Of a DNA stretch of 64,000 nt, positions 1 to 59,530 are shown one piece after another. This stretch comes from Buxus sempervirens (Eukaryota; Streptophyta; Magnoliopsida; Buxales; Buxaceae), in assembly GCA_947561395.2 (NCBI GenBank), contig OX387191.1, positions 40,675,439 to 40,739,438 on the forward strand, read 5' to 3'. Below the pieces are notes generated by a model. That model was not told the origin of the DNA, did no database searches, and worked only from the letters and a program-made list of their open reading frames with translations. Positions within the stretch are counted from its first letter, which is position 1. Each line of letters opens with the position of its first letter. A program made the position numbers and the translations under genes.

Positions 1-428
1 CCCTAAATGGGACTTGGGCTTTCACTAAAGCCCAAATTGGTATCTTGTGGGCCTTTCAACAAGGTCCACATCAGACCAACATCACCTAGATAAAAAGATA
101 AAATCAAATAAAAATAAAAGGGGACACACACCACCTTGGTGGCCCCCACTTGGACCAATAAAATGTGCATGCTGGCATAGAAGTAGGGTGAATTTAGAAT
201 TCAGTTGACTTGCAAACCAGGAAACCCAAGGGACCCATCAAACCGACGAGGCGGACCGGGGTGTCTACGGACTTCCCCGGGCCGTAATCGAGCCCTTTCT
301 CAGAATCTCAAGCCGCAGATCAAAATAGACATCCTTAAGGGATCCAGGTGTCTGCCTGCACCCCATCAGGCAGTGGCGAGTCCTAATCCCCCTCTCCCCT
401 CGCTTTCGTGTGCCCCCATGTGCACACA
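1..428 (+). mobile_element. 3' part (U5) of the 5' LTR of element 1 (Tat/Ogre-like)
   Basis: The window opens inside a long terminal repeat. It ends ...GTGCACACA at 428, followed by a 3-base spacer and a primer-binding site. The segment aligns closely by eye with the reverse complement of 58978-59430, and more loosely with the U5 ends of the LTRs ending at 8013, 14640, 20772, 34885 and 44450. All share a block around GGACCGGGGTGTCTACGGAC and a CACCCCATCAGGCAGTGGCGA block. Two U5 hairpins are visible: TTGGGCTTT...AAGCCCAA near 14-33, and GTGGGCC/GGTCCAC at 47-69. The LTR start lies upstream of the window. Family assignment is from the downstream gag and the long LTRs. Confidence 0.85.
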
Positions 429-431
429 GCT

Positions 432-450
432 TGGCGACTCCACTGGGGAC
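432..450 (+). other. Primer-binding site of element 1
   Basis: TGGCGACTCCACTGGGGAC begins with TGG, complementary to a tRNA CCA tail, three bases after the LTR end. A decayed copy sits at the same place in the minus-strand relative (14618-14636). Tat/Ogre-type elements commonly use an arginine tRNA. I infer that assignment and have not matched it to a tRNA sequence. Confidence 0.8.
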
Positions 451-494
451 AGGCTCAACCCAATTGGAGATTATACTGAGTCAACTCATTAGGA

Positions 495-700
495 TGCACA
501 TGTGCAAACACACACATTCACATGCACCTACACTCTTACATGTGCACACACGCACATACACCTACATATGTGCACAAACGCACATATTGGTACACATGTG
601 CGTGCATGCACATATACATGTGCGCATACGCACACACTTTCGCACATATGCACACATGCACATACACTCCCATGTACACATGCACTTGTATATACACATG
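495..700 (+). repeat. (AC/TG)-rich low-complexity tract in the leader
   Basis: About 200 bases of imperfect CACA/TGCA/ACAT alternation, immediately downstream of the PBS. It generates spurious His/Thr/Cys-rich open frames that are not genes. Alternating purine-pyrimidine runs such as GTGCACACACGCACATAC can adopt Z-DNA. The corresponding part of the related leader at 13967-14617 lacks the tract, so it looks like an expansion private to this copy. Confidence 0.8.
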
Positions 701-1889
701 CAAAATGTCTTGTTTTTCAGTTATCTATCTATTCATTCTATTGCTTCTCATTATATATGCATGGGGTGACACACGCAAGGGAGCCCGCATGGGTGATCCG
801 ATTGAATGGCACATGTGATCCATCTTCTCAACCAAACCCTAGACCTCTCTCGCAACCACCCTTCTTTACCGTTTAAACAACTTTTGGGATGATATTAGCC
901 TAACGCGCCTCTGGCTTGCTGGGGAAAGCGAAGGTAAAACATCCCCCCAGGTTTCTAGATCCCTATAGCACCGTTGGTTTCCTGCCATGGTACGCGAGGG
1001 ATCTTGGACCTGGCTCAGACCCTTGTAGGCATTTGTCTCGAGCTGGGTACCCTTTTTCCACCTAACGTTCTAATACACCTTTTGTGATGAATGTGATCGT
1101 GAATGATAATACAAGAGGAGTAAAATCAATCTAAAACTCAAGAGCCCATTAGGGGCAGCAACCCCTGACTCCTTTTGCATCAAATTGAGTGGACCTTAGA
1201 CTCAGGGCTATCTCAGCCCTAAATTAGGAGGCCTACCTACTTTTGATCAGGGGAACCACTCCAGATCCATGCATTGAGTCCAGAAAGCCGTGGGCCTTGA
1301 CCAATTGAGTCCGTTGGAAGCACACCGAAGTCCGGGTCAGTCTTCAAGCAGACGAAAGCCGGCCAGATTAGAAAAAGCAGATGAAAGCAAGCCAAATCAG
1401 AAAAGGGATAGTGAAATCCTAGATCTAGGACTTTTCAGCCTACCCTCTTGAAATCAAATGTATCCTGTCCTAGGGTTCCCGACAACCCTGGGATCGAACA
1501 CTTTTCCAGCTTTTTAAGCTTCAAGTAATTTCGCCCTTGCTGACAAGTTGTAAGCATTCCTTCAATCAGACAACAGAGAATCTTCAGAACAGATGAAAGA
1601 CAAAGACTGATCAGGACTTAGATGTACTTCCTCACACAAGTACGTCTAGGAGTCGTGCCTTCACTGGCACCAACCCTTATAGGACTGCACACACATTTCA
1701 ATTTTGTGTGTTTTTTCTTGACACTATGTCAGAGGATGGTAGGCCCCGCAACACTTGCTCTTACCTTCCTACACATGCATAAACCATTTGCACATCAAAA
1801 TGCACTCACTTCAAAATCAAAAGCCACACCAACACTTTTGGTCAAAATTGCTTTGAAAAAATGCACCATAAAGAATTTTAAAAATCCAA
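701..1889 (+). other. Noncoding leader of element 1, upstream half
   Basis: No coding potential recognised. The part around 880-1070 matches the reverse complement of 13967-14140, in the leader of the minus-strand relative. Shared blocks include GGGATGRTATTAGCC, GGGGAAAG, CCCCAGGTTT and TACGCGAGGG/TATGCGAGGG. This shows that it is an ancestral part of the family's leader. A splice-donor-like AAG|GTAAAA lies at 931-939. The rest (1080-1889) shows nothing I can name. Confidence 0.6.
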
Positions 1890-3893
1890 TCGCCTCCAGC
1901 CTCAGGGCATACATCAAAGTGCCTTCGGGCCTCAGGGCGTACATCAAAGTGCCTCAAGGCATACATCAAATCACCTCCGGGTGAACATCAAGCCGCCTTC
2001 CGAGGTGCACATTGCTTTTCCAAAGCATAGATTAAAATGGCCTCTGGGCCTACATCAAAATCGTCTTTCATGATATACATTTGCAGAAATCTCCCATAAC
2101 TTACGGTAAACCATTTCCCATGGTTATATCGAGTTGTCATCCAAGAGAAACATCAAATTGCCTTTTTGTGGCATACATTCTGTTTAACTGAAGCAATGCC
2201 ATCCACGGCATTATTTTTTGGAGCTAAAACCAATGGTTTCCCAAATTTGCTATTTCATAGCATTAGTTGCAAAACTTGCCAGTCACAGCATGATTTCGGA
2301 TTTCACTATCCATGGCAAAACCTCTAAAAAAGATTTTAAAAAAATGTTTTAAACTAATCTTTCAGAATCCTTGTGCCATCCATGGCACAATCTTTTGCCT
2401 TCCAAAAACCACTGTGCCATCCAAGGTACACCTACAGAATTTCAGAAGAATCATTGTGCCATGCACGACACAATCCTAAAGTTTTCAAGTTCACTGTGCC
2501 ATGCACGGCACAAACCATAAAGTTTCAAACTCCTGCGCCATCCACAGCGCAAAACAAAAGAAAATTCCAAAATTCACAGTGCCATTCACGGCACAGTAAA
2601 GCTTTCAAGCACATAGTACCATCTACGGTACTTCACCAGATTCTCGAAAAGTTCTTGTGCCATTCACGGCACAGAACAAAGATTTCAAAATTCACTGTGC
2701 CATCCATAGCACCAAAACAAAGATTTCAAAATTCACTATGCCATCCACGGTACGAAAACAAAGGTTTCAAAAGTCACCGTGTCATTCACGACACCATCAA
2801 AAGCCTCAAAATGCATCTTGCCATCCACGGCACCTGCACCATACACGGTGCATCCTCCTTTGCTATTCACAGCACTCGCACCATTCACGGTGCCTTTTCC
2901 CAAGGGCTCGCCATGCACGGCATCCACATGTCATCCATGACATAAGCCTCAAGATTTGCTATATACATTTGATGCACTGTCCACAGTGCTTATCCTTGAG
3001 ACTAGACAACCACGGCGTCCTACACACAGGATATCACAGTCTTTCAAGAAGGCCATTCATGGCATCCACCCTCTGAGCTACCCTTCCCATACACGGGATA
3101 GCACAGTTCACAATAAGCTATGCACAGCATTCCCTTTTTGAGCTACCCTTCCTATTCACGGGATAGCATAGCTCACCCTCCGAGCTACCCTTCCGATACA
3201 CGGGATAGCACAGCTCACCCTCCGAGCTACCCTTTCCATACACGGGATAGCACAGCTCACAATAAGCTATACACAGCATTCCCTTTCCAAGCTACCCTTC
3301 CCATACACGGGATAGCACAGCTCACCTTCGAGCTACCCTTCCTATACACAAGATAGCACAGCTTACAAAACCACCCTTGGGCTACCCTTCTCGTGTTTGA
3401 GATAGCACAACTTCGGCTACCCTTCTCATGCACGAGATAGCACAGCTTTCAAGACGACCACCCTTGGGCTACCCTTCTCGTGTTTGAAATAGCACAGTTT
3501 TCAAGAAGGCCCTATTCACGGCATTCACCCTTGGGCTACCCCTGCCAATCCCCGGCATAGCACAACTTTCAAGAAGGCCCTAATCACGGCATTCACCCTT
3601 GGGCTACCCTTGCCAATCCTCGGCATAGCACAGCTTTCAAGATGTTTCTTTTTCATGCATAGCCATTCACGGCGGTTGCCTTCCACGGCTATAGCACTAT
3701 ACACAGTGTGAAGATTCTTTTTCACCACTCACAACACCAGCATAGGGCAAAGTTTACCTTCTTATTAAAAGCAGCACTTTTTTGCCACACACGACACTCT
3801 AAACCACGGCTGCCCTCACACAGGGGCAGACCACTTTCAAAAGAAACTAACATGTCTTTTGTTTTCTTTTTCCTTTTTTATTTTCCATTTCAG
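934..3893 (+). other. Candidate leader intron of element 1
   Basis: The 3' end is a textbook plant acceptor: CTAAC branch-point-like sequence at 3847-3851, then a nearly uninterrupted pyrimidine tract at 3853-3890, then CAG at 3891-3893. The gag-like ATG follows 62 bases downstream at 3955. The best upstream donor I found is AAG|GTAAAA at 931-939, inside a block conserved with element 2. Removing 934-3893 would bring the gag start near the RNA 5' end and excise the hairpin array. Introns are known in Ogre elements, though elsewhere in the element. No transcript evidence; other donors are possible. Confidence 0.4.
1950..3708 (+). repeat. Array of about 35 short hairpins with ATNCAC loops and covarying stems
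   Basis: Imperfect repeats, about 20-50 bases apart, each contain a 4-7 bp inverted repeat, mostly around a hexamer ATCCAC, ATTCAC, ATACAC or ATGCAC. Examples: TTGTGCC/GGCACAA (2371-2390), AGTACC/GGTACT (2615-2632), GTGTC/GACAC (2779-2794), TGCACC/GGTGCA (2835-2852), ATGTC/GACAT (2928-2943), GCACTG/CAGTGC (2974-2989), CACT/AGTG (3695-3708). From 3077 to 3629 a composite form appears: outer GCTA/TAGC, a CCCT bulge, and inner TCCC/GGGA, TCTC/GAGA or TGCC/GGCA. Early units (1950-2262) use other loops, such as TCACC/GGTGA (1971-1984) and TGCTTT/AAAGCA (2013-2027). Linkers share ACATCAAA or a TTTCAAAATTCACT-like motif. Open frames across the array are by-products. Confidence 0.9.
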
Positions 3894-3954
3894 GGTTGAA
3901 AGTGTTGCTGCCATAGCTCACCGAAGTCCATATCTGTTAAGATCCCACACGAAG

Positions 3955-5474
3955 ATGAACCCAGAAGAGCCACCTGTGCCTCAGCCACCAGCACCACAGC
4001 CTCTCGCACCACAACAGCCTCTGCCACCTCGTAAAATTGAGGAAGAGCAGGCAATCATGCACTTAAATCAACAAGTGGGGCATATCACCGAGCTACTCCA
4101 AAACCTCATCAGACAAATGCCACAGCCGGTGATCCCACAGCCATGAGAAGAACCACAAGCATTGCCGCAAGGATTGCAAAGACCGCCACAAGCTCCACCA
4201 CCAGCTCATCTAATGCCTCCACCAATCCTCCCTCCTCAAGTACCGCCTCCTGTTGTTCCACAAATCCAGCAATTGCAGCAGATACCTCTTGATGATGCGC
4301 TGCATCTCCCACATATTCCGGAGGTAAACCATGAAGAGGAAGAGGACTGGTACAGACAGAGAAATGAAGCAAGGGGCATCTCGCCCGAAGTCAATGCCAT
4401 GATCAATGACCTCAGAGCAGAATGGCAAGAACTGAGGAGAGGGGCAGTGCCAGGAAGGATGACAGTCGACAATTTTTGTTTCTTCCCCGACATACAACTC
4501 CCAGCAAAGTTTAGGTGTCCCGACTTCAAGAAATTTGACGGAACCAGTTGCCCAACTGCACATCTCCGATCATACTGTGGAGCCATGGTGGGATACAACA
4601 GGGATGAGCAGTTAATGATACAACTATTCCAGAGATCCTTAACAGGGCAAACACATCGTTGGTTTTCCACTCTGAGCCCTACGCAGATCCGCACTTTGCT
4701 AGATTTGGCACACCTCTTCACTGAACAATTTAGGTTTAACTCTGAGGTGGTACCCACCAGGATGGAGCTGATGAGGATGAGCAAGAAGGCTGGAGAGATA
4801 GTCAGAGACTACGCCCGCAGGTGGCGTGAACATGCAATGATGGTATGCCCACCATTGATGGAGGAAGAGATAGCCAGCCTATTCATCTCAACCCTCGGAC
4901 AACCATACTACTCCCACATGATTGGCCAGCAGGCAACAAGTTTCAGCGCCCTGGTCCAGATCGCCGATAGGGTTCAGGGTGGCATCAAGTCAGGATTGAT
5001 AGAGGCAGGAAGCCTGAGGGCCAAAAGGAAGTGGTAAGTGTTGACTTTGCACAGGGGCAACAACCACTTCACTTACAAAGAGGGACTCATCCAGGTGGTA
5101 CAAGGCCCACAGGGTTGGCGCCAATGCCAGGAGTACAAAGGGAAGATAGAAGAAGCAGGGTATTCACACCACTTCCCTACACGCCTGCTGAGCTCCTCCC
5201 AACGTTGCTAAAGGGAGGCTATTTAAGGTTGATTTCGCCTAACCCAAATGCAGCATTAGGAAGGAACTATGACCCCAAAGCAATCTGCGAATATCACATG
5301 GCACCAGGGCACACCACCAACCAGTGTTGGGCCCTTCGACATGCGATCCTGGACTTAATTGACTCCAAAAGACTTACTGTGGATCCTCCTACCCCTACCA
5401 CTACATCCAACACACCGGCCACAGGTGTTATGCAAAACCCTCTTCCAGATCACAAGGGGGGCATCTTCCAATAG
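3955..5474 (+). pseudogene. Broken gag of a Tat/Ogre-like gypsy element
   Basis: Gag forms the virus-like particle and binds element RNA. From ATG 3955 there is a Pro/Gln-rich N-terminal region, then a retrotransposon gag domain (about 4480-5000: FKKFDGTSCPTAHLRSYCG, ARRWREHAM). The tail holds a zinc-knuckle-like CEYHMAPGHTTNQCWALRH near 5287-5343. That tail, ending in NPLPDH-like residues, is typical of Tat/Ogre gag as I know it. Two lesions are visible: an in-frame TGA at 4144-4146, and a frame change near 5015-5035, where the first frame ends at TAA 5035. A GGTAAGT donor-like motif sits on that break. No protease, RT or integrase follows, so the element resembles a non-autonomous gag-only (TR-GAG-like) type. 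It also has the noncoding leader such elements carry. Confidence 0.85.
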
Positions 5475-8012
5475 GACAAGTTGAAGGGAATTAGGCAAGG
5501 TTGCAAGGTGCAACCAACTCCCACAAATCCAAAATCTTCCTTGGACACAGTTCTATGCCGAGTCCACCCTTTCCAGGCTAAGTTGAAGTTTACCTTTTGT
5601 GTCGACCATCCTGGACAGGACCGGTCGTTTTGTAAGCATTATGCATGCTTTTACTTTTTTCGCAAACTTTATGTTAAAAAAAACTTTTGAAAAAATAGCA
5701 ATTGCTGGGTCGATGATGACATCATTTTGAGACCGCACCTTTTGTGGTACAACCATGATCATGTGAAAAATGCCGAGTTGCTCAGAGGTGTCTTCAGCCG
5801 GGTCCAACATACTACTCCCATGAGAACCTTGACTAAGCCAAAGGCAATATTTCTTGATCCATGCCTTGATTTTCCTTCCAACCCTATCTTTACACTGGGG
5901 CAGAGCAATCCTTGAGAGAAAAGAAAGGAAAAGAAAAAGAGAGAGAAAGTGTCTAAACCAATTGAGGGCCAAGGCCAGCTTTAACATCATGTCTTTAAGA
6001 AATGATGAAAGGCCATCCTTCATGCATCATGAATTTTAAGAACGGCTAGTCAAAACACTTTGGACTTGATCGTATCATTCAAATACCCGTGTTTTATCTA
6101 GCCACCCCACACTGGGGCAAAAGCTGAAAAAGAAAATAAAAAGGATGGAAAGATTCCTGAATAAATTTGCATGAACATTTCAACAAGTTGTCACAACTTC
6201 TGCAAAAGGAGGAGAGGCCATCATTGCTTTATTTTCCCAGTCTTCAAAGTCATACCTCTAGTCAAACCATTTGAGCCTAACTTTCCTTCTTCTAACCCAC
6301 TGAGTCATGAGCCCTAAATAAGGTGATTGGTAAGGGAGAAAAGACATGAATGAGCAAAGACAAAGAAAAAGAAAAGAAAGCAGAAAATACACTGGGGCAT
6401 GCTAATCAAAGCAAAAAGCAAGATGAACCCAGGGCAAAGGAAAGGAAAAGCAAAGATGCTAGTGGAAAAATTGAAGGTCACAAAAGGCCTCAAAAAGAAA
6501 AGGAAAGAAAGTGAAAAGGCATTGGCAAAGTTCAAGCAGTCAAGAAAAGAGGAGAACATGACTCGACCCATTTATAAAAAGACTTTGAGCCGTTTTCCCT
6601 TTCTTTCATAAACCAAAAACCTCAGACTTCGTTTCATCCCGTTAGAAAGTCCTTTCTGATTGCAAAAAATGAGGCAATTAAATTCATGCAGATCTATGAT
6701 GAATGAATCTAAAAAGAAGAACGAGCTCTGGTAAGACACAAAGTAAAACCTAAAAATGAAGAGATAAGAACTTGAGCCTTATATCCCATCATTTCTCAGA
6801 CTTAAAACTAAGCCGATGTTTCGTCCTAATGTGAAGACCTCTATGATCTACGGGACATGATGCACAAAAGTCAACCAAAGACCCTCAAGCTAGGGCAAGC
6901 ACTAACCCCCAAGGGAAAAGAAAAAAGGGAAAACCATCAATTGCAAAATCCTGAAACCACCCTAAATGGTTGGGTGAAGGTGAGAGAAACCAAAACTGGG
7001 AAAGGTAGAACACTTCTTGAGATGCCCCTTATCCTCTAAACCTTTGCAAAACCTTTGAGAACCAAGGACAATACAAGTCAAGAATCTCATGAGAATACGT
7101 GTCGAGCATACCATCCCAAAACACTTCAAGCCAACAAGGCAATTCACCACGATCGTTGGTCCTGCCTTTTCTTTTTAGATCACTTGTACAAAATTTCTGA
7201 AAAAGCTTTTGAAGAAATATATTTCATTTCAGTCATGTGCACTCGCACACACAATAAAACCAAGTAAGCGATAAAGCGCTTACAGCTTGAATTTCAGGTA
7301 CCTCACTACTCTATGAGAATTTTGTAGGCCTGGGCGAGGTAGAAAAATCAGAAGATATCAAGAGGCATCCTCAAGCCAGAAGAAAAGAAAAGAAAAAAGA
7401 GCAAAAAAGCAAAGCGGAGGAAAGCCATCCAAAGCACGCCAAGAAAGAATTGCAAAGAGCTCACCTGTCCCTTGCGGGTTCTTTCCCAAATAAAGAATCC
7501 ATGCATCCCCAGTGGAGAACCATCCAGAACAAAGCTCGAAGAAGCTCAAGAACAAAAAGAGAAAGCATGTTTTGAAGACAAAAAGGGCAGAGAAGTCCCT
7601 CATGTAATTTTTGATTTCCCACTTTTGTAAGTAGAATAGGAAAGGTGTGTGAGTTCCCTTGAGAATCGGACAGCACCAGGAGCACCTCCTCACCAAGAGC
7701 ACCTCCTCCTTCCTCTCTCCTTCCTTTCCTTGACCCACCTCCAGTCGCCATTCCTTAAGAAAAAAAAAGAAAAGAGAAAAAACCTAAAAAATGTTTGCAC
7801 CCTCACTGAAATTTGAAAATTTCATCCTCACTAAAATCTAAGAAGCTAAATCATCCAAAAAATCCAAAACCAGTGCACTGACATTAAGGCAATGCAAGGG
7901 CACCCCAAAACCTAAAAGATGTGCAAAGCGTCACTTCTTTCTCAGAAACCGGAAAGGTGCTAATCACCACCTATTTCAAGAACCAGAATCTAGAAAAGGT
8001 GCTAATCACCAC
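5475..8012 (+). other. Noncoding 3' region of element 1, first part
   Basis: No pol-like translation was found in any frame. The stretch is rich in A/G tracts (5910-5950, 6120-6150, 6355-6390, 7370-7400). The decamer CACTGGGGCA occurs at 5893-5902 and 6110-6119, with ACTGGGGCA at 6391-6399. The right edge (7945-8012) holds two copies of a GGAAAGGTGCTAATCACCAC-like unit, interrupted by the solo LTR. It resumes at 11872 with the same CTATTTC...AAGAACCAGAA motif. This shows that the two flanks were once contiguous. Confidence 0.65.
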
Positions 8013-10954
8013 TGTGCGCATGGAAAATCGCACGGTGGGGCGCACGGATTCTCGTGCGTGTCTCCGAGAGGGTAAAACGGTAATTTGGAGTCGCCACCGC
8101 CTAATGGGGTGCAGGCGGACACCTAGGTGCCTAAGCTTGTCTATTGGGCTGGTCTGCAGTTTGAGATTCTAGGTAAGGTTTCGGTTGTGATCTAAGTCCG
8201 TAGACACCCCAGACCACCCCGTCGGATGACGGGTCCCATGGGTTCCTCTTGGTTTGAGTCAACTCGCTGATTTCTCACCCGATTCCTATTCCAGTATGCA
8301 GTTTGGTTAAGTTTGTGGGACCACCTGAGTGGTTTGGGTCCCTTTAATTGCTTTTATCTTGCTTAATTTAAGTGATCTAAGTCTGAGTGGGCGGGCCCCG
8401 TTGGAAGGCCCACGGATTCCTTGGTGGGCTTGGTTAAGCCCACATGTCCCGTGGTGGGCCTCAGTCTAAGCCTGGGAGGTCCTTTGGGCTTTGGTTAAGT
8501 GTATTGATTTTACTTTGGGGTTCAGATTTGAAGATTAAGTGATTTCCATGCAAAAGGTGGGCCTGCATTGGTTTGCGAGCCTCTGGGTGGGCCACACAAG
8601 TGTTGCCAAGAGTTTTCAAGTTATCTTGTTAGATTTTCCAAAATGGGCTGGTCACGGGCTTGGGGCCCATAGTCCAGACTTGGGCTGGGAAGCCCAAGGT
8701 TTTCTTTCAAGCGGGGGTTTGAACCCTTACTTGCTTGGTTAGTGGGCCGCATTGGATTTGGCCCACTCAGCTTAGTTGATTAGCTTGTTTAATTCATTCA
8801 CATGCACAAGGGTTTATTGGGCTTGGTGGGCCCCGTTAGAAGGCCCACTATGTATTCAGTTGGACCGGTGGTCCAAGTCCCATCTTGGGTTTCTGGGTGA
8901 TCCGGAAACCCTATTGGCTTGATAAGTTTAGTTAACAATGGCCTTAAAGTGGTGAACAATCAAGAAGGGCACAAAACAGCACCTGCAACAATGTAGCCTA
9001 CCTGAGTTGCCGGCTACACATGAACTCACTTGTAGCCGACCACTTAGGCCAGCTACACACATAAATCCATGTATCCGGTCAAAATGGTCGGCTACAAATA
9101 GGCCCATGCTGATTCGACCTGAGTTGTCGGATCAGCTAACAGAGAGTGGGTTTTTGGATTTTTTAAATGGATCATGCTTGTGGGCTTCCTAGGGATGCTA
9201 TAAGGCTTCGTGGGCCCCTGGGAAGGCCCACATGGGTTCTGGAGATAGGGAATCCCCTCATCTTTGGCCTCTTTCTGTGGTTTCTACAGCAAGGAAAGGA
9301 GGGGGGGAGACATGGGAGGTTGCCTCCTCCGCCTTGAGCCACCTACAGCAACCAAACAGGGACCATGTCACCCCTGTTTTGGTCTCTTAATTTATGCACA
9401 ACAGCAAGCATCAAAGATCAATAAAAAACCTATGGTTAAGAACCTATAACATGATCCAACAAAAGACCAAGACATGTATACTCATACTTTATCCAAGGGG
9501 ACAGCAGCTCATGCATGCATTCAAACAAGTAAGACCCAAGTAAGAAACCATTCGGTTTATTCCTAAAGTAGGGAAACTCATGCATGCACTCAAGACAATC
9601 AAGCAACCAAGCATGTCATGTAAACACCAATAGAAAGCAACTAAGAAACCATGCTGTAGGTGCCAATAACAGCAGCCTTTAAAGAAGGTTAAACATGCTA
9701 ATGACGGGCTGGAAATAACATAAAAGCTGTGGGAGAGAGGGGGCCTTCATGCATACTACTTTGGCAATAACATATCTCATGTGTGCATAAGCCAAATGAC
9801 AAAGAAAGGACTGTTGTAGAAGGGGGACAGAAACTATTTGGAAGGGGTTAGCATGCTGCCAAGGGCTAAAATGATAGGACTATGGGGTGGGGGAGCATGG
9901 CAATTAGACCTCTAGCTCATACAACAACCATCGCATGCATTACATATAAATCCAATCTACTTAAAAAGAAATAATGTGCTGCTGCTGCCGCCAACAGCAA
10001 CCCTAAAAGTTCCTCATATGCCTACTAGTTTAACATAAAAAAAAGAGGTCATTCTCATATTCCAAGAAGCATGCTTCATAACCACTAAACCTGCCGACGC
10101 ACACATACAACCCCTTTCTTATACATTTTAATACATGCTTTTTCCACGCATTCCAAGGCAAGTGATGGAGGATCATGCACATCACGGGAGCACGTCAAAG
10201 AGATGAAAATGAGATGCAAAGAGAAGAAACAAGAGAAGGGATAATGGGGGGTTTACAAGGGTACATTAGAAAAAAGTATTGGGGGAACATGCTCCCCTAT
10301 GAAATACCAAGGAGGATGACAATGACATTACGTCCAAAACAGCAACCTCAAGGACTTACATGCAATGACACGACATCTCATCCTCCCATGAAACCATACG
10401 AATGCCATCTCTTACCTTGGAGACCTTCGTATGGTGGAAATGAGAGGATAATACACACCCCATTAGTATGGAAATAGATCTTATGCCATGGAAGAAACCA
10501 AGCATGGTAAAATCTTTAGAAAACCTTCATTTTAATATATGTGCCATAAAATATGGTAAGGAACCTTACCTAGGGATCTTGAGACCTTCTTGAGGTGTGT
10601 AGGCTTCTTCTTGAAGCTTGGACAAGAGTTGGAGCACCACTTTACAGCTCCACTAGCAGCAACCCAAGTTCTTTTTCTTTTCACTTGGATGATCAAGAAT
10701 AAGAAGAAGGGAAAAGGGGGTGGTTGATCCTGGGGTGGTGTGGTGATGTTGTATGAAACAAAGGGAGAAGGGACAAGAGGGCACCAACCGTAGGGGAGAG
10801 AAGGGGAGAAAGGGAGAGATGAGTTGGGAGAGATGGGAGAATGAGCCACCAAATGAGCTAACCCCTTTCATACGTATGGGGCTTGGGGTTTTTATTATGG
10901 GTGGATGATGAATGGGTGCATGGAAGAGAGATGAGACATGGAGGATGCCCATGG

Positions 10955-14636: not shown

Positions 14637-17408
14637 GGCTGTGTGTGGTGAGATCGCACGGCAGGGCGCATGTGACGTGATTTTGAGGTGTGTGCCTCCT
14701 AAAGGGTAAAACGGGAAATGGGAGTCGCCATCGCCTGATGGGGTGCAGGCAGACACCTGAGTGCCTAGGTTTGTCTAATTTGCTGGTCTGCGGCTTTTTC
14801 AGATTTCGGCTAAGCTCTCGGTTACGATCCGGGGAAGTCCTAAGACACCCCGGTCCGCCCCGTCGATTGACGGGTCCCTCGGGTCTTCCTAGTTTTCGAG
14901 TCAACACAATTCTAACTCACCCGGTTCCTAAGCTAGCATGCACACTTTATTGGGTCTTGTGGGGGCCACTTGAGTGGTGTGGGTCCCTTTATTTGATTTT
15001 ATCTTGATTTATTTAAATAACCTGGGTCGGATTAAGTGGGCCCCGTTGGAAGGCCCACAGATCCCTTGGTGGGCTAAGCCTAGCTTACATGTCCCTTGGT
15101 GGGCCTCGATCTAAGCCTAAGAGGCCCTTTGGGCTTTGGTTAAGTATGTTGATTTTATTTAAGGTTTAAGTGTAGGATTATATTAAATCTTATGTAAAGT
15201 GGGCCTGGATGGTTGTGGGCCCCTTGGGTGAGCCTCACAATGGTAACCGAACAATTTTGATTTATTTTATTTTAATTTGTTTCCAAAAATGGGCTAGGCA
15301 TTGGGCTTGGGGCCCGTAGCCTAGGTTTGGGCTTGAAAGCCCAAGACTAGGGGTTAGGGTTTTGGAACCCTATCCTTATTTGGTTAGTAGACTTAGTGGG
15401 CCCGACAGGCCCAGGCCCACGGTCTCGGCCAAACCAATCCTAGACTAAGCCTGCATGCTTCAATTTGGGTCTTATGTGTGCCTCAAAGGGTCTGGCCCGC
15501 TTAATTTAATTATTTCATTTAAGTCCAAAGGTTTTCATTAGGCTTGGTGGACCCCATTGGAAGGCCCACAATGAATCAAATTGGGCCAGAGAAGCCCAAG
15601 GCTCATGGTTCAAATGGCATCAAAGTCGGAGTCAAATTGAAGGAGTTCTGATGAACGTTAGATAGGCGTTTGAAGTGCCGTTCAAACGTGCAAAAAAAAA
15701 TTACAGAGAAACCCGAGATTAGTGTTCGACAGCGTGGGATGCAGCGTTCGAACGTTAGTGTATTTTAACCTAACGTAAGACCTGCCGTTCGAACGTTGGT
15801 ATCGATTGAACCCAACGTTCAAACGAGAAGAGGTGAAGTAGCTTTACGAACTGAACGTTAGAGCCGCATTTGATGCAGCCTTCGAACTTTCAATTTGTAA
15901 AAACATTAAGAAAATTCTGATCTTTTCTGATTTGCTTCCCTCTTCTCCTAGATCCTCTTCTACCCCATATAAGGATAGTTAAGGGTCTCTACTAGAGGGG
16001 CCGAAGTGATGTGTGGGCCTCTGTGTAGGCCCACAGTGGCTCAAGTGGAGGTGAACGACCTCCTTTTTTTTGGGGGAATTTGAAGTCCAAGAATGAGGGA
16101 AAAGACTTGGGTTTTGTCTTCTCTTTCCTTGGTCTAAATCCAGCAAGTGTCCCTGTTTTGGTCTTTTTCATCCTAGAAATCAGCAACTAACATGTATAAA
16201 AAGAAAACCAATCGAATGGGCTCACAAGAGCATGCTCCATACCAAAGTGTGTGTGTGTGTTTGCTGTACATATAAGCTGAAGTGAATAATCACATGCATG
16301 CTGGAAAAGGTGAGTGCTCACATATACGAAGATCAAGTGGTAAAAACAAACAATAGTTGACTTAGCATGCTTCTAATGAGTAAGTGTCACGCCCCAGAAC
16401 CAGGTATGCCTCTCCAAGGCATCCCCCTATCCAGGCCGTGATGGGTTGGTCTTTCGACCTGATAAAATGTGGAGGATTTAAAACTTTTACCTACAAGTGC
16501 AAGTGATAAGCCTATTAATACTGTGCATATCAAAAGTGTGTTTATATCAAAGAAATATAATAAGACATGAAAGTTGATTACAAAATGATGGGAGACTAAT
16601 CACTCCTCTCAAAATATAAGGTTTACAATCCACAAAGGGAACTATACATGAACAACAGAAATAAAGCCTAAGGCGTATAGAAACCTTCCTCTCTATACCC
16701 AATGGCTTTCTCATTGCCTCTATCCCCAGCCCTGTCCTTCACACCGGATGCTGACGGATCTGAAAAGGACAATATAAAACAACTTATGAGACGATTGTCT
16801 CAGTAAGCAACACATGCATGATCGGTGATGTAAGTACCTCATTTTTGCGCTCTCGGAAGAGTCGGAAATACAAAACCCAACTAAAAAGTCAAACCCTGAG
16901 GGGTCGAAAATTGACTTTTTGATCAAGTGAAAATTGGCCACCTTGATTTATCTCAATGGATAGAGAATCCCGACACGAGTCCAACGCAACTGAGTTTGCT
17001 GGAATTGGAGTCCGGATAAAGTTTCTGCAGGCCGATCAAACTTAAAGAGGAGCCGAAAGTTGACTTTTTTTGAACCCCGAGCCAGGTGCTTAGCTCTAAA
17101 TTATTGGATAGAGGGCTCTGATACGAGTCCAACGCAACTGAGTTTGCTCAAATCGGAGTCCAGATGAAGGAGATATGAGCTCTCGAAGTTTCCGAGCAGC
17201 AAAACCCAGAAAGCTGCACACATGGCAAAAAGCCGCACACGTGGTGAGTAGTGTAAGAAAATATCTCGAGGGGCAATCCGTAAATATCGAAACATGCAAA
17301 ATATCCCAGGGTTTAAAGCAAAATTTCGCAGGGACCAAATCTGTGAATATCTAAGAGTATCGGATGAATCTGCGAATATCCAAGGGCAAATCCGTAATTT
17401 TTCGATTT

Positions 17409-19711: not shown

Positions 19712-22700
19712 AAAGGGAAAAATGCAACTTTTATGCTTTTTTTTGTTCCTTGCCAAATTTCGTGATGGTTTTAACAAAGCCAAGTGAACCAATAGGGTTT
19801 CCGGGTGAACCAATAGGGTTTCCGGGCCACCCAGAAACCCAACTTGGGACTTGGACCACCAGTCCAAATTGGAAACATTTGTGGGCCTTCCAACGGGGCC
19901 CACCAAGCTCGATAAATCCAAAAGCATGCAAATTAGTAAGTTAAGTAAAATGAACCGATTGAATCGGATGGGCCAAACCCAATGTGGCCCGCCCGAACCA
20001 ACATTGTTGAATGTGTTTTAAATTGTGTGGTTTGGCCGAGACCCAGGGTTAGGGCCTGTCGGGCCCGCCAAAGCCCGCTAACCAAACCAAATGTGGGTTT
20101 AAACCCTAACTGCATGGAATTCGGGCTTTCAAGCCCAAAACTGGACCTCGGGCCCCAAGCCCAATGTCCAAAACACCTTGGCAAATTTAAATGAGATAAA
20201 TTCGAAGACACTTTGGTAATCATCATGGGGGCCCGCCTAAGGGCCCGCAAACCGAGGCCAACCCACTTTTGCATGAAAGCCACTTAAATTCTTGAGCTAA
20301 ATCTTAAACTAAAATTAATTCACTGAACCTAAACCCAAAGAGCCTCTCAGGCTTAGACAGGGGCCCACAAGGGTACATGGGCTTAGTCAAGCCCACCAAG
20401 GACACCGTGGGCCTTCCAACATGGTCCACCCAGTCAGACTCAAATCACCTAAATTAAGCAAGATAAAATCAATAAATGGGACCCACACCACTCAGGTGGT
20501 CCTGCCAGACTTAACCAAATGGCATGCCGGATTGGTAATCGGGTGAGACCAAAGCAAGCTGACTCAAACCAGGGAACCCACGGGACCCGTCATCCGACGG
20601 GGTGGTCTGGGGTGTCTACAGACTTCCCCAGACTGCAACTGAGACCTTCTCAGAATCTCAAGCTGCAGACCAAAGCCCAATAGACAAGATTAAGCACCCA
20701 GGTGTCCGCCTGCACCCCATCAGGCGGTGGCAACTCCGAATTTTCCCGTGTCGCGTTTCCGACGCGCGCATAGGTGAAACCACAGTTTATGCAGATAATA
20801 TTCGAGAAACCATGACATGCAGATAGTTTTAATACTACAAATCCATGGCATCTTAGTGTCATACACTTAGTGTATGCATGTGCCTCGGTGTACAAGTAAT
20901 CCATTTAATAACAATCCTCCATTCAAGGCTTATCACTTGTTATCTAGGTTGTTTAGTATATAACACACATGGACCCATCTAGCTTCACCGATTTTATATG
21001 GTGGCTAGGCATCCAACGCCGATTCCCCTTGACGTGGGCATCTATATGGCGATTCCCCGTGACTTATAGGCATCCATTGCCGATTCCCCGTAGCCAATGG
21101 ACATCGGCCATCGATGTTGCTGGTGCCGGGATGATATCACAGTAGAGAACAATAGCAGTAACAATACACTTGGCCATGGCATATATATACAAACAAGCCT
21201 ATTTAAGTTTATGGATCCATAACTTAAGGGTTCATTATGTTGACGTGTTCATTCATCAATTTCACAACAAGTATATCATGTGTATCATGCACCCATGCAT
21301 GTCAAATCTCAAGGGTAGCGCATAGCCTTACCCGAGTCATTCTTGGGCCAAGCCCTCTTTCGTTTCTCATGGATTCTAGGCCACTGCCCTCCATTCAATA
21401 TATCAGTATCAATGGGCCACCACCCTTTCATTCAATGTGTCAATACCCATGGCATGCTAAACTGGTGGTCCAATGCCCTAAATATACATTGTATGCTTAC
21501 AAGATTCTCAAAAATATCAAAATACAGTTTAAACAATATTCTTTGCATCTCATGGCTCACTTGGGCAACCTATGCCTCAAATCTTTTAAAACTCGAGGAC
21601 TTGGTTTTGGTTCTTAATTTCTACTTCCAAGGGTCAGTTAGAAGGTGGTCAAAGTGACGGAATCAAATTATCCTACTCCTATGAGAATCTGAGATAGAAA
21701 ACTCTCTATAAGACCTTCTTTGGTAAAACGTATCCAAAATCCTTGTTATTTGGAATTTTGAAATACTTCTAGTTCGAACACTTCCTAAACACCTAACTCT
21801 CACTTATACATAGGTTGGATTTGAATTAAAACAATTGTAGTTTGATCTGGGCTAAAAATCACCTTTTTGGAAAATTTGGACAGGGCGCTCGACCCTGCTT
21901 CTAGCGGGTATAAAATAGCTCTCGGGTTCTTCAGGTTCAGGCAGGTCGCTTGAGCAGCCATGCCTTAAGTCATTTCCTAAAAAGGCTGCCCGATACCGTG
22001 CTTGAACGATGGTTCAGGCGACTGGGCTTCTCGACAGTTCGTGAAATCCTAACTTTTGGGATTTCTAAGTTTTCTCAAATCTCACTTGTTTTTGGTGTTT
22101 TTGGGCTCTAAATTGCTCCTAACATGTGTGGTTATCTATTTCCTACAAAACCCCTAAAAGAAATCCCTCCTATTTTTACAAATAAACCTTTTCATGCTCA
22201 ACCATAACTTTCACATTTCACATACGAAAATGGCTGAAATTGGAAATATAGGTTGGGTGGTGTTGCTTACCTTGTGCAATCAACCTAGCAAGCCTTCTTG
22301 CTCCTATTGCAACCCACGAGCAGCACTCCTTGTGCCTCTTGGTTGCCTTCTCCACAAATCCCCAATAAAAGCTCCAAACGAAAATGCCCAAATCCTTGGG
22401 TTTTCTTCTTCTCTTCTTGCAAGGGTTTCTTCAAATGGGTTTAAAGTGAATGGGATGTGATGAGGAGAAGAAAATGAAGAGAAAGAGATGGTGAATAGAG
22501 GTGGAAGAGAAGAGGGAAATGGAGAATAGGGTGTGGGGTTGGCTTATACGAATGGGTCTTCCCTTTGTCTTTCCACACTTAAGCAACTCCTCTCAAGACC
22601 CAATGATTTACCACTTTGCCACTCCACCTATTGCACACAACAAACACTTAGCTATTTTTGATTTTCACACTTATAAGCTAAATCTGGAAATCCTAGAGAT

Positions 22701-43653: not shown

Positions 43654-44455
43654 GCATATTTTATACAGGCAGCACACGATAAATATACAAAATCTGATTT
43701 TTCGGGATTTAACAAGTTTAAACAAATAATTTATCAATCAACCCTAACCTAATGAGGTCTCTGATTGCTCAGAGACCTCTCTTGGGACTTGGGCCCTCCT
43801 TGTGGGCCTTCCAACGGGTCCCACACCCGTCTTACCTAACTAAAGCCCATTCCAATGGTGGGCTTCAAGGGCAACTTGGCTAAGCCCAGTAGTCCCGCTT
43901 TAAAAATCTAAACCCATTAAATCCTTTGCATGTTTTAATCATCTCCAAACCAAATAAACCAAATTCCGAAAAGGGGTTATCCAACATAACCCCCAAATGG
44001 GACTTGGGCTTGACTTAAGCCCAAACTGGCATTCCCGTGGGCCTTCCAACGAGGCCCCACACTGGACCCACATCACCTTAAATAACAAAGATAAAATCAA
44101 AAGAGAGGGACCCACACCATTCAGGTGGTCCCCACAGACTTAGCAAACAGGATTGCATATTTGACATAGGATTGGGTGAGTAGACCAAAAGTTGACTCTA
44201 ACCAAGAAGCCCTATGGGACCCATCACCCGATGGAGCGGACCGGGGTGTCTATGGATTTCCCCGGACCACAATCGAGACCCTACCTTGAATCTCAAGCCA
44301 CAAACCGCCTAAATAAACAAATCTAGGCACCCAGGTGTCTGCCAACACCCCCATCAGGCAGTGGCGACTCCAAAATCCTGATTTACCCCGAAATGAGGCA
44401 TGCACTCCCGTGCGCCTCGCAGTGCAGCCCGCCGTTATGACGCACGCATAGGTAT

Positions 44456-51992: not shown

Positions 51993-53240
51993 CGTGAAAC
52001 GCAACGCAACTGTGCAAGAGCTCACCAGAGTTGAGTTTGATTTGCAAATATATAAGGATCAAACGCAGGCTCAAGTTAAGGAGCTCCAAGAATCCCTAAC
52101 CTTAATGGCAGCAAAGCAAGGGGAGTTTCAGAAGCACATGCTTGAGGAAATCCGACAGTTGAATGTGGGACGAAAGCAACCCCTACAACAAGAATGGGAA
52201 ACTATAGGATCTACTCATACAAAATGAACGCAACATCTGCAATAGGAAGGAGAAACTACAGGATCTGCTCACACAGTTCGTGCAAGCTCATCCATGATGG
52301 CACGGCCGTTAAAGCTTAATTTTCCCTTATTTAACGGCAGTAATCCGTTGGATTGGATTTCTAGAGCTGAACGATTCTTTCGTTATCACCTTACGTCAGA
52401 GGATCAAAAGGTGGTGATAGCTTCATTTCATTTGGAAGGCGATGCAGTCCCTTGGATGGACTGGTATGAATCTAAACACTTGACCTCATCTTGGGGTGGT
52501 TTCATTGATGCACTTATGAAGAGATTTGGTACCCATAGCTATGAAGACTTCAACGGTGCTTTATCAAAACTCTGTCAACTCGGATCAGTGGAGGCATATC
52601 AAATTGATTTTGAAAGATTAGCAAGTCGAGCCCATGACTGGACAGACGATCAACTGAAAGGCTGCTTCATCAGCAGCTTACAAGACAAACTTCGTCATTA
52701 GGTTCGTTCCTTCATGCCTAGCACATTATCGTCAGCCATTTCCTTGTCCAGAATCCAGGAGGACAAAATAATGGCCCGCAAAACTACTTCCAAGTGGTCC
52801 ATTGGTAAGTCGGCACTCAATCCAGCCACTAGAGTGATCCCTTCCATGGTGAGCAACACACCTGCGACCTTCAACAAGCAAGCGCCCATGCATAATGCGT
52901 TACCACCGGTTCGTCGACTAAGTCCAGCTGAAGTACAAGAACGACGACTCAAGAATCTATGCTTTACATGTGACGAACCATTCAGACCGAGTCATAGGTG
53001 TAAGAAGCCCCAATTGTTATTCATGGAGGGAGAATGGACGAAGGAAGAAGAGACAGACCACAAGCCGACCATTGCAGAACCATATCCAGAACCAGAGGAC
53101 GAACCAACCATATCCTTACATGCCCTTACCAGTTCTCTTAAACCGGAAACTATGCGCTTACAAGGGACCATCAGGAAGACCAAGGTTGCCGTTAATATAT
53201 TCTGGATCAACTCACAATTTTCTCAGTCCATCTATCGCTA
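51993..53240 (+). pseudogene. Gag of the Reina-like chromovirus, with several stops
   Basis: An N-terminal helical segment (ELTRVEFDLQ, QAQVKELQESL) ends at TGA 52225. The frame then continues past a second stop to the gag domain at 52294-52698 (LKLNFPLFNGSNPLDWISRA, AVPWMDWY, GFIDALMKRFG). A TAG at 52699 interrupts it. The tail holds a zinc knuckle CFTCDEPFRPSHRC (about 52963-53004), preceded by RRLSPAEVQERR, as in Reina-type chromoviruses. A local duplication GGAAACTATAGGATCTACTC / GAGAAACTACAGGATCTGCT (52196 and 52249) may explain the first stop. The original ATG is not preserved. Confidence 0.82.
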
Positions 53241-53542
53241 AGCAAACCGGTTGTCGAGTTGACACAGGTGATGTCTCTAGAATTCTAGTAGCTAACGGGT
53301 CCCTTCTCACAACTAAGGGTAAAGCTTTGGAGGTACAGTTGAATTTTCAAAATTATCATTTGTCCACTGACTTTTTATTATTATCAGTGAGTGGCTGTGA
53401 TGTGGTATTAGGGGCACAGTGGCTAAGATCCTTAGGTGCAATCTTATGGAACTTCAATGACATGACACTGTCATTCACAGTTGATGGTCATGATCACATT
53501 CTTCATGGCAATATTACCATATCAACTCAATTAGCAAAATGA
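53180..53542 (+). pseudogene. Aspartic protease of element K, catalytic Asp replaced
   Basis: YSGSTHNFLSPSIAKQTGC corresponds to the DSGSTHNF active-site motif of plant gypsy proteases, with Tyr where the catalytic Asp belongs (GAT to TAT). VLGAQWLRSLGAILWNF downstream is the conserved flap-distal block. It lies one frame away from the zinc knuckle, so a frameshift occurred between about 53040 and 53180. It ends at TGA 53540-53542, in the same frame as the RT. Confidence 0.85.
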
Positions 53543-53545
53543 CGC

Positions 53546-55122
53546 ATGATGCAGAAAATCCTTACACATGAGAGAAATGGGATGATTGCCCAGCTTGTTC
53601 ACACCCTTGCAATCGAGGACAATCGGCTAGCACCAACAGAAATACAATGGTTACTTGACTTATATCCTGATGTGTTTGGGTCACTAGTGGGTCTTCCCTC
53701 ATACTGGGCACACGATCATCGCATTGTATTGATACTAGGAATGTCACCAACCAATGTGCGGCCGTATCGTTACCCACATTTTCAAAAGACCGAGATTGAA
53801 CACATAGTCCAAGAGATGCTACAATCCGGAGTCATTCGACCCAGTGTGAGTCCCTATTATTCTCTGGTTATACTCGTCAAGAAGAAAGACGGTAGTTGGT
53901 GAATGTGCGTTGATTACCGTGCTTTAAATGCCATTACGGTAAAGGATCGTTTCCCAATTCCAGTGATAGATGAACTCTTGGACGAGTTGTATGGTGCCGC
54001 CATATTCTCTAAACTTGACCTTCAATTAGGCTACCATCAAATTCGAGTCAATGAAGATGACATCTCCAAAACGGCTTTCCGCACTCATGATGGCCATTAT
54101 GAATTTTTGGTCATGCCATTTGGGTTGTGTAATGCTCCATCGACATTTCAATCTCTCATGAATGACATCTTCCGACCACATCTACGACTGTTTGTATTGG
54201 TGTTTTTCGATGACATTCTTATCTATAGTCAAACCTTGGCAGACCATGTTCAACATTTAACTATGGTTTTTGACTTACTTCGGCTACATCAATTACGGGT
54301 CAAACGCTCGAAATGCTCGTGGGGACTTCAATATCTTGAATATTTGGGCCATATTGTATCTGACCAAGGAGTGGCGGTTGATCCGACCAAGGTTGAAGCT
54401 ATTAAAAATTGGCCTAAACCAAAGACGCTCAAGAGCTTGAGAGGGTTCTTGGGTCTCGCGGGTTATTATCGAAAGTTTGTTCACAACTTTGGAATCATAT
54501 TGAAGCCACTTACTGAAATGCTCAAGAAAAATGCATTTCATTGGACTGAAGTGTCAGAAGCAGCCTTTGAACAGTTAAAGTTGGCAATGACAGCCACTCC
54601 TATACTGGCATTACCTAACTTCACTAAAGAATTTACAGTTGAATGTGATGCATCAGGGTTCGGAATAAGGGCGGTTTTATCTCAAGATGGCCATCCCATT
54701 GCATTCCTTAGCAAGGCTTTGTCTGGTCGGAACTTGGTTTTGCCAATCTATGATAAAGAGATGTTAGCGGTTATTTATGCGGTTCAAAAATGGTGTCCAT
54801 ACTTGTTGGGCTGTCCGTTCAAGATACTTACAGACCATCTAACCCTTCAATACTTCTTGGACCAGCGGATTTCAACTCCAGACCAAAACAAATGGCTCCT
54901 AAAGCTTTTGGGCTACAATTATATCATCGAGTATCGAAAGGGGGCCCAAAATACTGTAGCAGATGCACTATCCAGGCGAGACGAGGTTGCGACTCTAACG
55001 GCCATTTCAGGTCCAATTTTTTCAATATTGGACGACCTCAAACATGCTTGTCATAATGATCCAACCCTGTCATCCATCATACACCAGTTGCAAGGTCCTT
55101 CGGCTTCTATAATTTACTATTC
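53546..55122 (+). pseudogene. Reverse transcriptase and RNase H of element K
   Basis: RT palm motifs are present: PYRYPHFQKTEIE, SGVIRPSVSPYYSLVILVKK, a TGA at 53900-53902 (likely from CGA), VDYRALNAITVKDRFPIPVI, FSKLDLQLGYHQIRV, MPFGLCNAPSTFQSLMN and the catalytic VFFDDILIYS. It continues with LEYLGHIVSDQGV and LRGFLGLAGYYRKFV. RNase H follows with ECDASGFGIRAVLSQ and DNA/RNA-binding YRKGAQNTVADALSRR. Apart from that one stop the frame is open for 1.5 kb, so decay is fairly recent. The solo LTR at 55123 cuts it between RNase H and integrase. Confidence 0.93.
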
Positions 55123-55695
55123 TGTAACGCCCCAGATCCGAGTCACATGAAAAACCTGTAACTCGTCTCCAGAGGTTATTATAAAACACAGGATCGCAAT
55201 ATCAGAGTGAAGGAAAAACATGAATACAACAATAACTATATAACAGAGTGCGCTAAAATATTCCCAGAATTAAAATAAAACTCACATGTCCAAGTAACTA
55301 CCCGCAAGTAACGAGCTCTCCAAGAGTATCTGAAAACAAAAACGAAAGCAACGGGATGAGATACGAATATCCCAGTGAGCAGCACATGCATGCACAAATA
55401 CATTTTGTTCAGTTCTAAAACATGCCACGATTACAAACCATATACAACGATGATAACACGTATAACCCAACAAAACTTCAACGATCTAATTTACTTCCGT
55501 GAGGAAAACCATCGCATAAACCAAGCGGTAAAGACGATATCAATCATGCATATAGCCGTAAAGTCACGTATAACCAGGTAGCAACATATCGAAGAAAACA
55601 TAGTTCAACAACTCAAAAGATATAACTCGGGTCCCAACCCGTATCAACAATAAAGTCACATCATAACCGATGCCCACGCCTCCCAATGTATATCC

Positions 55696-56106
55696 GGCCT
55701 ACTCAGGGTTTCGGATATTGAAATGACAGTGTCATCCAATGCCGGCCTACTCCGGGTATCGGCATTGACAACACCATACCACTCAGGGTCATGATGCTGC
55801 TCTACACTGGCAGGAGGTACAATACCCAAAAATCGGTAAACAATATTCCATGAGCCATAGATACCAACAAACCAGCGAATAAAACATATCACGTCAAACA
55901 AAAGTCAAATACCAACATTGGTCAATGTCATGTAGTTGCTTGGATTGGTTAATCAACATGCCAGAGCGACATCCACACCTCCATGTACACAGTTCCGGCC
56001 TACTCAGGGTATCGGACACTCTGAAATGACGGCCTACTCAGGGTATCGTCATCCAATGCCGGCCTACTCCGGGTATCGGCATCGACAACCAGGCCTACTC
56101 AGGGTT
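55696..56106. repeat. Dispersed CGGCCTACTC units in the solo LTR
   Basis: Several copies of a CGGCCTACTCAGGGTWTCG unit with variants, in two clusters (55696-55765 and 55997-56106). The same units occur in the LTR at 24580 (about 25190-25310), showing shared ancestry. Confidence 0.8.
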
Positions 56107-56272
56107 TCTGGCTGCTCTACACCAGTCGTGGCAACACTCCATGGCCATGCCATTACACCAATAAAACAAAATACATCACATTACTAAGCTTAGACTCTGG
56201 ATTCAGGATAAACTAAAATCAAAACCGATAAATCGCCGATAAAACACCGCATTCAGTATGCGCATTACAAGT

Positions 56273-56461
56273 TGTTCCAACCAGAACAGAAACTCACAAG
56301 TGTTCCAACCAGAACATCAACTCACAAGTGTTCCAACCAGAACATCCATTCACAAGTGTTCCAACCAGAACATCAACTCACAAGTGTTCCAACCAGAACA
56401 TCAACTCACACCAGTGTTCCAACCAGAACAGAAATTCTTCCCAAGTGTTCCAACCAGAACA
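56273..56461. repeat. 28-bp minisatellite of seven hairpin units
   Basis: Seven copies of TGTTC-CAACCA-GAACA start at 56273, 56301, 56329, 56357, 56385, 56415 and 56446, joined by TCAACTCACAAG-like linkers. Each unit is a 5-bp stem with a 6-base loop. The stems are identical, so there is no covariation to test here. Confidence 0.95.
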
Positions 56462-58414: not shown

Positions 58415-58977
58415 ACTTAGAGATGGTTTTCTGTTATACAAGGATCGATACATGGTACTGGTTTCAGGTCCATGGCGAGCAAAACTGTTACATGAGTTTC
58501 ATGCAACATCAACAGCAGGACATTCTGGCGTTCTACGTACATACAAGAGATTGACACACAATTTTTTCTGGCCGGGTTTACGCGAGGGCGTCAAACGTTT
58601 TGTGGCTAATTGTGACACTTGCCAACGTCAAAAATACGAAGCTATTTCTCCACCCGGGTTGCTTCAGCCAATTCTGATCCCTAATAATATATGGCTGGAC
58701 ATATCAATGGATTTTATTGAAGGACTTCCCTCGTCAGCTTCGAAGAACACTATCTTAGTCGTGGTGGATAGACTCACCAAGTATGGACACTTCATTGCTA
58801 TCTCTCACCCATACTTGGCTGCTCAGGTTGCGGAAGTATTTATTCGAGAAGTTTTTAAGTTGCATGGAATGCCTCGGTCGATTATAAGTGATCGCGACCC
58901 CATTTTTATTAGCCAATTTTGGGAAGCCTTCTTAAAAAACCAAGGTACTCAATTGTGTCACAATTCCGCATACAATC
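58415..58977 (+). pseudogene. Integrase N-terminal half of element K, cut by an LTR
   Basis: The HHCC zinc-binding region is present (HEFHATSTAGHSG, FFWPGLREGVKRFV, CDTCQRQK). The catalytic core follows: WLDISMDFIEGLPSS with the first Asp, VVVDRLTKYGHF, and ISDRDPIFISQFWEA with the second Asp. It ends at LCHNSAYN, just before the expected HPQTDGQ and catalytic Glu, where the Tat-type LTR starts at 58978. No stop codon in this segment. Confidence 0.93.
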
Positions 58978-59530
58978 TGTGCGCACGTCGTACCCGTGCG
59001 AGGGCGCGCGCGAAAGCGAGGGGAGAGGGGATTAGGAGTCGCCACTGTCTGATGGGGCAAACACCTCAATGCCCCATCAGACACCTCGATGCCCTAAGGA
59101 TATCTATTTTGGTCTGCAGCTTGAGATTCTGAAAAAGGGCTTGGTTACAGTCCGGGGAAGTCCGTAGACACCCCGGTCCGCCCCGTCAGTTTGACGAGTC
59201 CCTTGGGTTTCCTGGTTTGCGAGTCAACTCAATTCTAAATTCACCCTACTTCTATGCCAGCATGCACATTTCATTGGTCCAGGTGGGGGCCACCAAGGTG
59301 GCGTGGGTCCCCTTTTCTTTTATTTGATTTTATCTTTTTATCCAGGTGATGTTGGTCTGATGTGGACCCCATTGGAAGGCCCATGGGATGCCAAATAGGG
59401 CTTAGGTCAAGCCCAATTCCCATTTGGGGTTATGTTGGATAACCCGTTTATTGGATTTGGTTATGTAGTTTGAGGGCTAATGGAATGTACAAGATTGGTG
59501 GGTTTATTGGGCCCAACGTAGAACAGGTGT

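Follow-up and report, generated by a model that had tools for sequence, protein, structure and literature searches.

A clustered array of short hairpins, very probably a selected sense-RNA structure, in the leader of a Ty3/gypsy-type retrotransposon family of Buxus sempervirens

The leaders of retroviruses, with their Psi and DIS signals, and those of the plant BARE retrotransposons contain a few individual stem-loops, and the leader of pararetroviruses forms a single large hairpin. Conserved dimerisation and packaging signals are mentioned for BARE2, an element that makes no Gag, in the accessible part of PMC3735527; a further arrangement is provided by dispersed packaging signals, i.e. stem-loops sharing a motif, which in the available text of PMC6281560 offer an analogy for the multivalent platform proposed below. 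The array considered here came to notice in a sequence-only reading, which knew of no earlier description of anything similar. None was found either in the accessible passages of the open-licence papers searched, as far as hairpin arrays in the leaders of plant LTR retrotransposons are concerned.

The window, i.e. the whole stretch of 64,000 nt that was analysed (Buxus sempervirens assembly GCA_947561395.2, contig OX387191.1, positions 40,675,439 to 40,739,438, forward strand), contains a member of a plant Ty3/gypsy-type LTR retrotransposon family, and the array is located in its long untranslated leader (Table 1). The assignment to Ty3/gypsy is supported by the gag domain, recognised in the open part of gag with an E value of 5.1e-07. 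A Tat-like affinity is presumed from gag and from the type of the PBS-like sequence, which we take to be tRNA-Arg. A CHHC knuckle-like motif is found in the translation downstream of the gag domain, in a different frame; between 3900 and 12000, 31 stop-to-stop frames are listed, and the nine of them that were tested gave no Pfam pol domain. When gag was compared with a protein collection, not one of 865 candidates reached E 0.001. The LTR-like window start (1-417) has 85% identity with 59002-59429 on the opposite strand, besides a likeness to further segments; this is also its best match within the window, where no close copy that could be its own 3' LTR is present. The segments 8082-8695, 14688-15436, 20028-20749, 43991-44388 and 59002-59429 are mutually related and partly resemble the window start, and judging from this resemblance they are probably further LTRs or LTR pieces. 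Matches to protease-like, reverse transcriptase, RNase H and integrase sequences at 52970-59132 belong to one or more other retroelements; this region includes a tandem array of about seven 28-bp units (56267-56469).

Table 1. Features of the element in the window
Feature	Position	Strand	Remarks
5' LTR, 3' part	1..429	+	probable; LTR start outside the window, precise end putative
PBS-like sequence	431..450	+	20-mer, read from the sequence
Array segment A/B	2195..3031	+	simple hairpins of 4-7 bp, loops mostly ATNCAC/T
Array segment C	3077..3628	+	composite units with few simple hairpins interspersed
Last array hairpin, CACT/AGTG	3695..3708	+	aligned helix backed by 26/40 copies
U-rich tract	3862..3893	+	between array and gag; T-rich in 34/36 aligned rows shown
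gag, stop-broken	3955..5471	+	4162-5037 open, Pfam Retrotrans_gag PF03732

The sequence-only reading had described about 35 short inverted repeats in a row between 1950 and 3708, with a nearly constant ATNCAC loop and stems of varying sequence. The observation is confirmed, since the leader upstream of gag does contain an array of roughly 15-30 short hairpins. In the stretch 1950-3850, hairpins that close a 6-nt loop with 4 or more Watson-Crick (WC) base pairs number 25, against a mean of 6.7 and a maximum of 15 in 200 dinucleotide shuffles; with at least 5 WC pairs the hairpins are 12 (shuffles: mean 1.7, maximum 6). In the same stretch 15 of the 44 ATNCAY hexamers are closed by at least 4 WC pairs, while permutation of their 3' arms (2000 times) closes on average 2.8 and at most 9; in the rest of the window, the closed hexamers are 1 of 229 on the plus strand and 2 of 171 on the minus strand. 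Up to 2784 many hairpins of segment A/B are about 41 nt apart, and from 2811 to 2990 they are denser; in particular, the loops between 2378 and 2784 form a near-regular lattice of about 41 nt, with steps of 41, 42, 40, 39, 44, 37, 41, 81 and 41. The composite units of segment C consist of an outer GCTA/TAGC stem, a CCCT bulge on the 5' side, a variable inner stem of 4 bp and a loop of 6-7 nt. The array is unlikely material for a coding sequence, since its three frames, each about 505 codons long, are interrupted by 10, 13 and 16 stops.

Several details of the original description need adjustment. The simple stems reported at 2615, 2779, 2835, 2878, 2861 and 2928 lie exactly there or a few bases off. 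For the composite units, the reported positions are those of the outer GCTA, and the inner stems begin 8 bases further on (3085, 3389 and 3424). The loop is not always a hexamer and is only partly constant: TGCGC/GCGCA at 2534 encloses 8 nt and the TGCC/GGCA stems near 3535 and 3603 enclose 7 nt, and the composites also carry GTGTTT, GTGTTC, CTACAC and others. The figure of about 35 units includes degenerate ones, 31 helix positions being aligned in the window copy, where hairpins with an NNNCAN-type loop and at least 4 WC pairs number 17, and the first good hairpin is at 2195, little being found between 1950 and 2190.

Other copies were sought in the Buxus sempervirens assembly (676.5 Mb, 247 contigs). 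The array used as query gave 537 first-look candidates, and 40 sites, window copy included, were scored; the scored array pieces are mostly 73-90% identical to the query, with weak ones down to 69%, and the aligned pairwise identity among the 40 copies is 76-98% (median 84%). As the other 39 copies were retrieved by array similarity, the presence of the array in them is given by construction, but its place is not: a PBS-like word (at most 4 mismatches) occurs upstream of the array in 31 of the 40 copies, and a gag match downstream of it, inside the retrieved stretch, also in 31 of 40. A gag search of the same genome gave 134 scored matches among 9059 candidates, at identities from about 90 down to 75%. 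Three of these 134 matches, from other clades (84, 79 and 77% identity), were picked by gag alone; the leader of each contains a hairpin array at the corresponding position, with composite units more prominent. The expectation that the array would recur in other copies is thus borne out by these three leaders.

Of the 34 helix positions backed by at least 6 of the 40 copies, 31 are those aligned in the window copy. Arrays differ among copies in length and in the count of perfect hairpins, which ranges from 5 to 26 (median 17); 295 composite units have a 6-nt loop and outer arms without deviation, and they are distributed over 39 of 43 loci. Nine of the 40 retrieved stretches have no gag match and were considered as a gag-less family on which packaging could be examined, but four of them (L070, L072, L084 and L089) have gag at or just past their edge, so that no such family emerged. 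In locus L099 (3280-4193) the array is directly followed by sequence like window 7058-8012, without gag, as perhaps expected for a deletion derivative. In L067, L070 and L089 the arrays are interrupted by sequence matching, in inverted orientation, upstream parts of related loci, an arrangement that suggests nested insertions.

That both arms change together, as originally proposed, is evident across the family. In 1370 ATNCAY loops from the 40 copies, WC pairs are found at stem positions 1-4 in 66, 78, 75 and 64% of cases, the values expected with independent arms being 43, 47, 37 and 39%; 459 of these loops have no closing WC pair. The 40 copies are not independent samples, and covariation was evaluated with a tree-aware null, in which the substitutions of each column are re-placed randomly on the tree; the procedure is R-scape-like and is not R-scape itself. 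It was applied to 152 column pairs, kept where at least half of the copies pair. On the first tree, replacement of a WC pair by another WC pair is observed on 40 branches (null mean 6.4, maximum 14 of 200 randomisations), and 18 pairs show at least two WC types (null mean 6.1, maximum 11). With three aligners and trees based on non-stem columns, such replacements occur on 39, 40 and 32 branches (null means 6.5, 6.3 and 5.4, maximum 14 of 300), and on 0-6 branches in the three alignments if each column is matched instead to one lying 1-3 columns away from its true partner. Covariation therefore exceeds the phylogenetic null in all three. Considered singly, 19 of the 152 pairs reach p<=0.05 and 6 reach p<=0.005; most pairs lack significant covariation, many of them, in our reading, because they hardly vary.

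If every kind of double change is counted, true partners have 58, 54 and 38 of them in the three alignments, and slid partners 8-37; joint change is seen in 58/11856 cases for partner columns and in 78/42432 for non-partner columns of the same hairpins, i.e. a 2.7-fold difference. Only 7 of 40 replacements of one WC pair by another are isolated, in the sense that the unit and its flanks show no more than one further change; this, together with the 8-37 double changes at slid partners, indicates that whole-unit exchange or misalignment contributes, and part of the double changes is probably due to whole-unit exchange. Double changes fall on terminal branches in 23 of 42 cases. Among the 91 distinct composite units, no excess of fully paired ones over permutation was found, either with WC pairs (27; mean 22, maximum 35) or with WC and G-U pairs (53; mean 49, maximum 57).

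Signs of selection were examined by comparing internal branches, which represent element lineages, with terminal ones, which represent the decay of inserted copies plus, given only 40 copies, some element evolution. In non-CpG columns internal/terminal changes are 115/279 for stems and 664/953 for spacers (p 1.4e-5); without CpG and CHG columns they are 70/156 and 570/756 (p 7.5e-4), and with all columns the three alignments give p 4.6e-4, 1.4e-6 and 1.7e-3. When the changes are split by class, those of non-deamination type show a significant contrast (p 0.005), and those of deamination type, taken alone, do not (p 0.55 at CpG/CHG, 0.15 elsewhere). Relative to terminal branches, internal branches thus carry fewer changes in stems than in spacers; together with the covarying arms, this indicates that the structure, as the sequence-only reading supposed, is probably under selection. 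For loops the same comparison with spacers gives no significant difference (p 0.38 and 0.48), although position 3 of the loop is about 2.4 times as prone to change as positions 1, 2, 4 and 5. The suggested loop ligand is weakened, because no extra constraint on the loop is detected; furthermore, the usual loop has little unpaired G, the base often favoured by retroviral NC.

Local folding is more stable than that of dinucleotide shuffles in 40 of 40 copies, in line with the original expectation (20 shuffles per copy; mean z -8.2, no copy above -4.0), and with a shorter cut in 43 of 43 loci (z -3.9 or below); the gag control has a z of +0.6, and gag and four downstream controls all stay above zero. 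The upstream leader also folds below shuffles (-7.3 in the window, -2.2 to -4.5 in four others), so structure is not limited to the array. Right after the PBS, a CA/TG-rich alternating tract extends over 485-720, with sub-threshold Rfam matches mostly to microRNA families; the search of 1-6000 gave 16 listed matches, none at gathering score, of which 14 are at 501-719, one at 2487-2593 (E 0.26) and one at 5310-5372 (E 0.97). A plasmid collection gave no match, and viral contigs gave 52 stretches with one exact match each and no arrays, about what we estimate by chance for 15 fixed bases given the size of that collection.

The choice between RNA and cruciform DNA had been left open. The minus strand also folds below its own shuffles (-3.5 to -9.2 in 10 copies and the window), but the plus strand is the more stable relative to its own shuffles in 36 of 43 loci (14 shuffles each). 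At composite pair 2, the 295 units contain C-G 149, U-A 69, U.G 67 and C.A 7, and the 91 distinct units 32, 26, 24 and 6, respectively (p 7e-4). Conversely, pair 1, which is a CpG site, shows the opposite (U.G 11, C.A 21), its covariation being significant over all units and not over distinct ones (p 0.12); pair 3 has 7 of each, and stem position 1 over the ATNCAY loops has 48 G.T against 146 A.C pairings. Changes that create U.G or A.C are in the ratio 45:42 on internal and 82:163 on terminal branches (p 0.003), or 33:23 and 63:92 outside CpG (p 0.02); after removal of CpG and CHG columns the shift is not significant (28:7 and 47:27, p 0.12). On the strength of the plus-strand excess and of U.G at composite pair 2, sense RNA is moderately favoured over cruciform DNA as the acting molecule. 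Altogether, the array is very probably a selected sense-RNA structure.

As for its function, control of splicing had been among the original suggestions. An intron spanning the array was evaluated on one candidate pair, GT 934 and AG 3892, and is not favoured by it: the GT is present in 77% of 35 copies (median of GTs 87%) and the AG in 3% of 33. A reading of the U-rich tract as part of a splice acceptor is likewise not supported, the AG of the window at 3892 being common to only 3%.

The role that we put first, at somewhat less than even confidence, is packaging or assembly on the full-length RNA. Hairpins on a lattice of about 41 nt between PBS and gag would constitute a multivalent binding platform on the full-length transcript, the partner most likely being Gag or a recruited host RNA-binding protein; in this way the RNA of the element itself would be selected and particle assembly would be nucleated. 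Many weak and interchangeable sites would account for stem variation, for gain and loss of units and for the frequent broken single hairpins. The array also occupies the place of retroviral packaging signals.

The main rival, unlikely in our estimation, assigns the hairpins to translation: in an AUG-filled leader of 3.5 kb they would lie between the cap and gag as a barrier, a shunt or an internal-entry element, and would balance translation against replication. The stretch from PBS to gag measures 3502 nt and contains 57 ATGs (45 expected from composition), which makes plain scanning to gag implausible; however, ATGs are not depleted in the array (19, with 17 expected), and the shunt of pararetroviruses relies on a short upstream ORF followed by one large stem, in contrast to the dozens of small hairpins present here. 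Structured leaders of plant pararetroviruses do govern translation and replication, according to the accessible part of PMC5902531. RNA dimerisation through the palindromic arms, or a use of the hairpins as small-RNA source or silencing decoy, seems improbable: the arms are complementary between molecules too and the hairpins are numerous, but kissing between loops is not expected, as AUNCAC lacks self-complementarity, and Dicer needs longer stems than these 4-7 bp.

Pairing might also be maintained without any function, if template switching during reverse transcription mended imperfect palindromes and whole-unit exchange mimicked joint change. The scarcity of isolated double changes, the share of them on terminal branches and the variation of the arrays in length and number of perfect hairpins are what this explanation would predict. 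Nevertheless it is quite unlikely, since partner columns show far more WC-keeping changes than slid ones and more double changes than non-partners, stems have a lower internal relative to terminal change than spacers, and the large prevalence of U.G over C.A at composite pair 2 would be unexpected if one arm were copied from the other. A function at the DNA level, in which cruciforms or palindromic binding sites for proteins would affect chromatin or transcription, accords with the many units that are near-perfect DNA dyads; it is very improbable, as RNA is the better fit for the bulged composites, for the U.G pairs at composite pair 2 and for the stronger folding of the sense strand.

The family, with 40 scored sites and 537 first-look candidates in a single genome, is a concrete candidate in which natural variation involves number, stems and loops among sites. 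It suggests that leader sequence resembling tandem repeats can be a selected RNA structure, and not junk. Tentatively, the packaging or assembly reading may be extended to a new class of retroelement RNA signals, i.e. clustered, evolvable arrays in which tens of hairpins, interchangeable with one another, are spaced at about 41 nt, in which pairing is selected while the stems drift and which would serve as multivalent Gag or host-protein assembly platforms in plant LTR retrotransposon leaders.

Compared with described systems, the leader is long, structured and rich in AUGs like the pararetroviral leaders associated with ribosome shunting, and differs from these in being made of small hairpins. 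Tat/Retand elements (PMC11963269, PMC6317226) are likewise plant Ty3/gypsy elements of large size that contain tandem repeats and long non-coding regions; in the accessible portion of the Retand paper of these two the arrays are placed between pol and the 3' LTR, whereas the present one precedes gag and keeps its pairing, and neither "hairpin" nor "stem-loop" occurs in the main text of either paper as available. The dispersed signals of the MS2 model are likewise many stem-loops with common loop features and varying stems, but, as presented in the available text (PMC6281560), they are spread over the viral genome, while the array is clustered in the leader, without a detected loop constraint. 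Finally, the retroviral Psi/DIS stem-loops and the plant BARE signals share with the array a location in the structured, untranslated part of the full-length sense RNA that separates PBS from gag; unlike their few single stem-loops, the Buxus leader contains tens of similar hairpins with changing stems, for which packaging is predicted.
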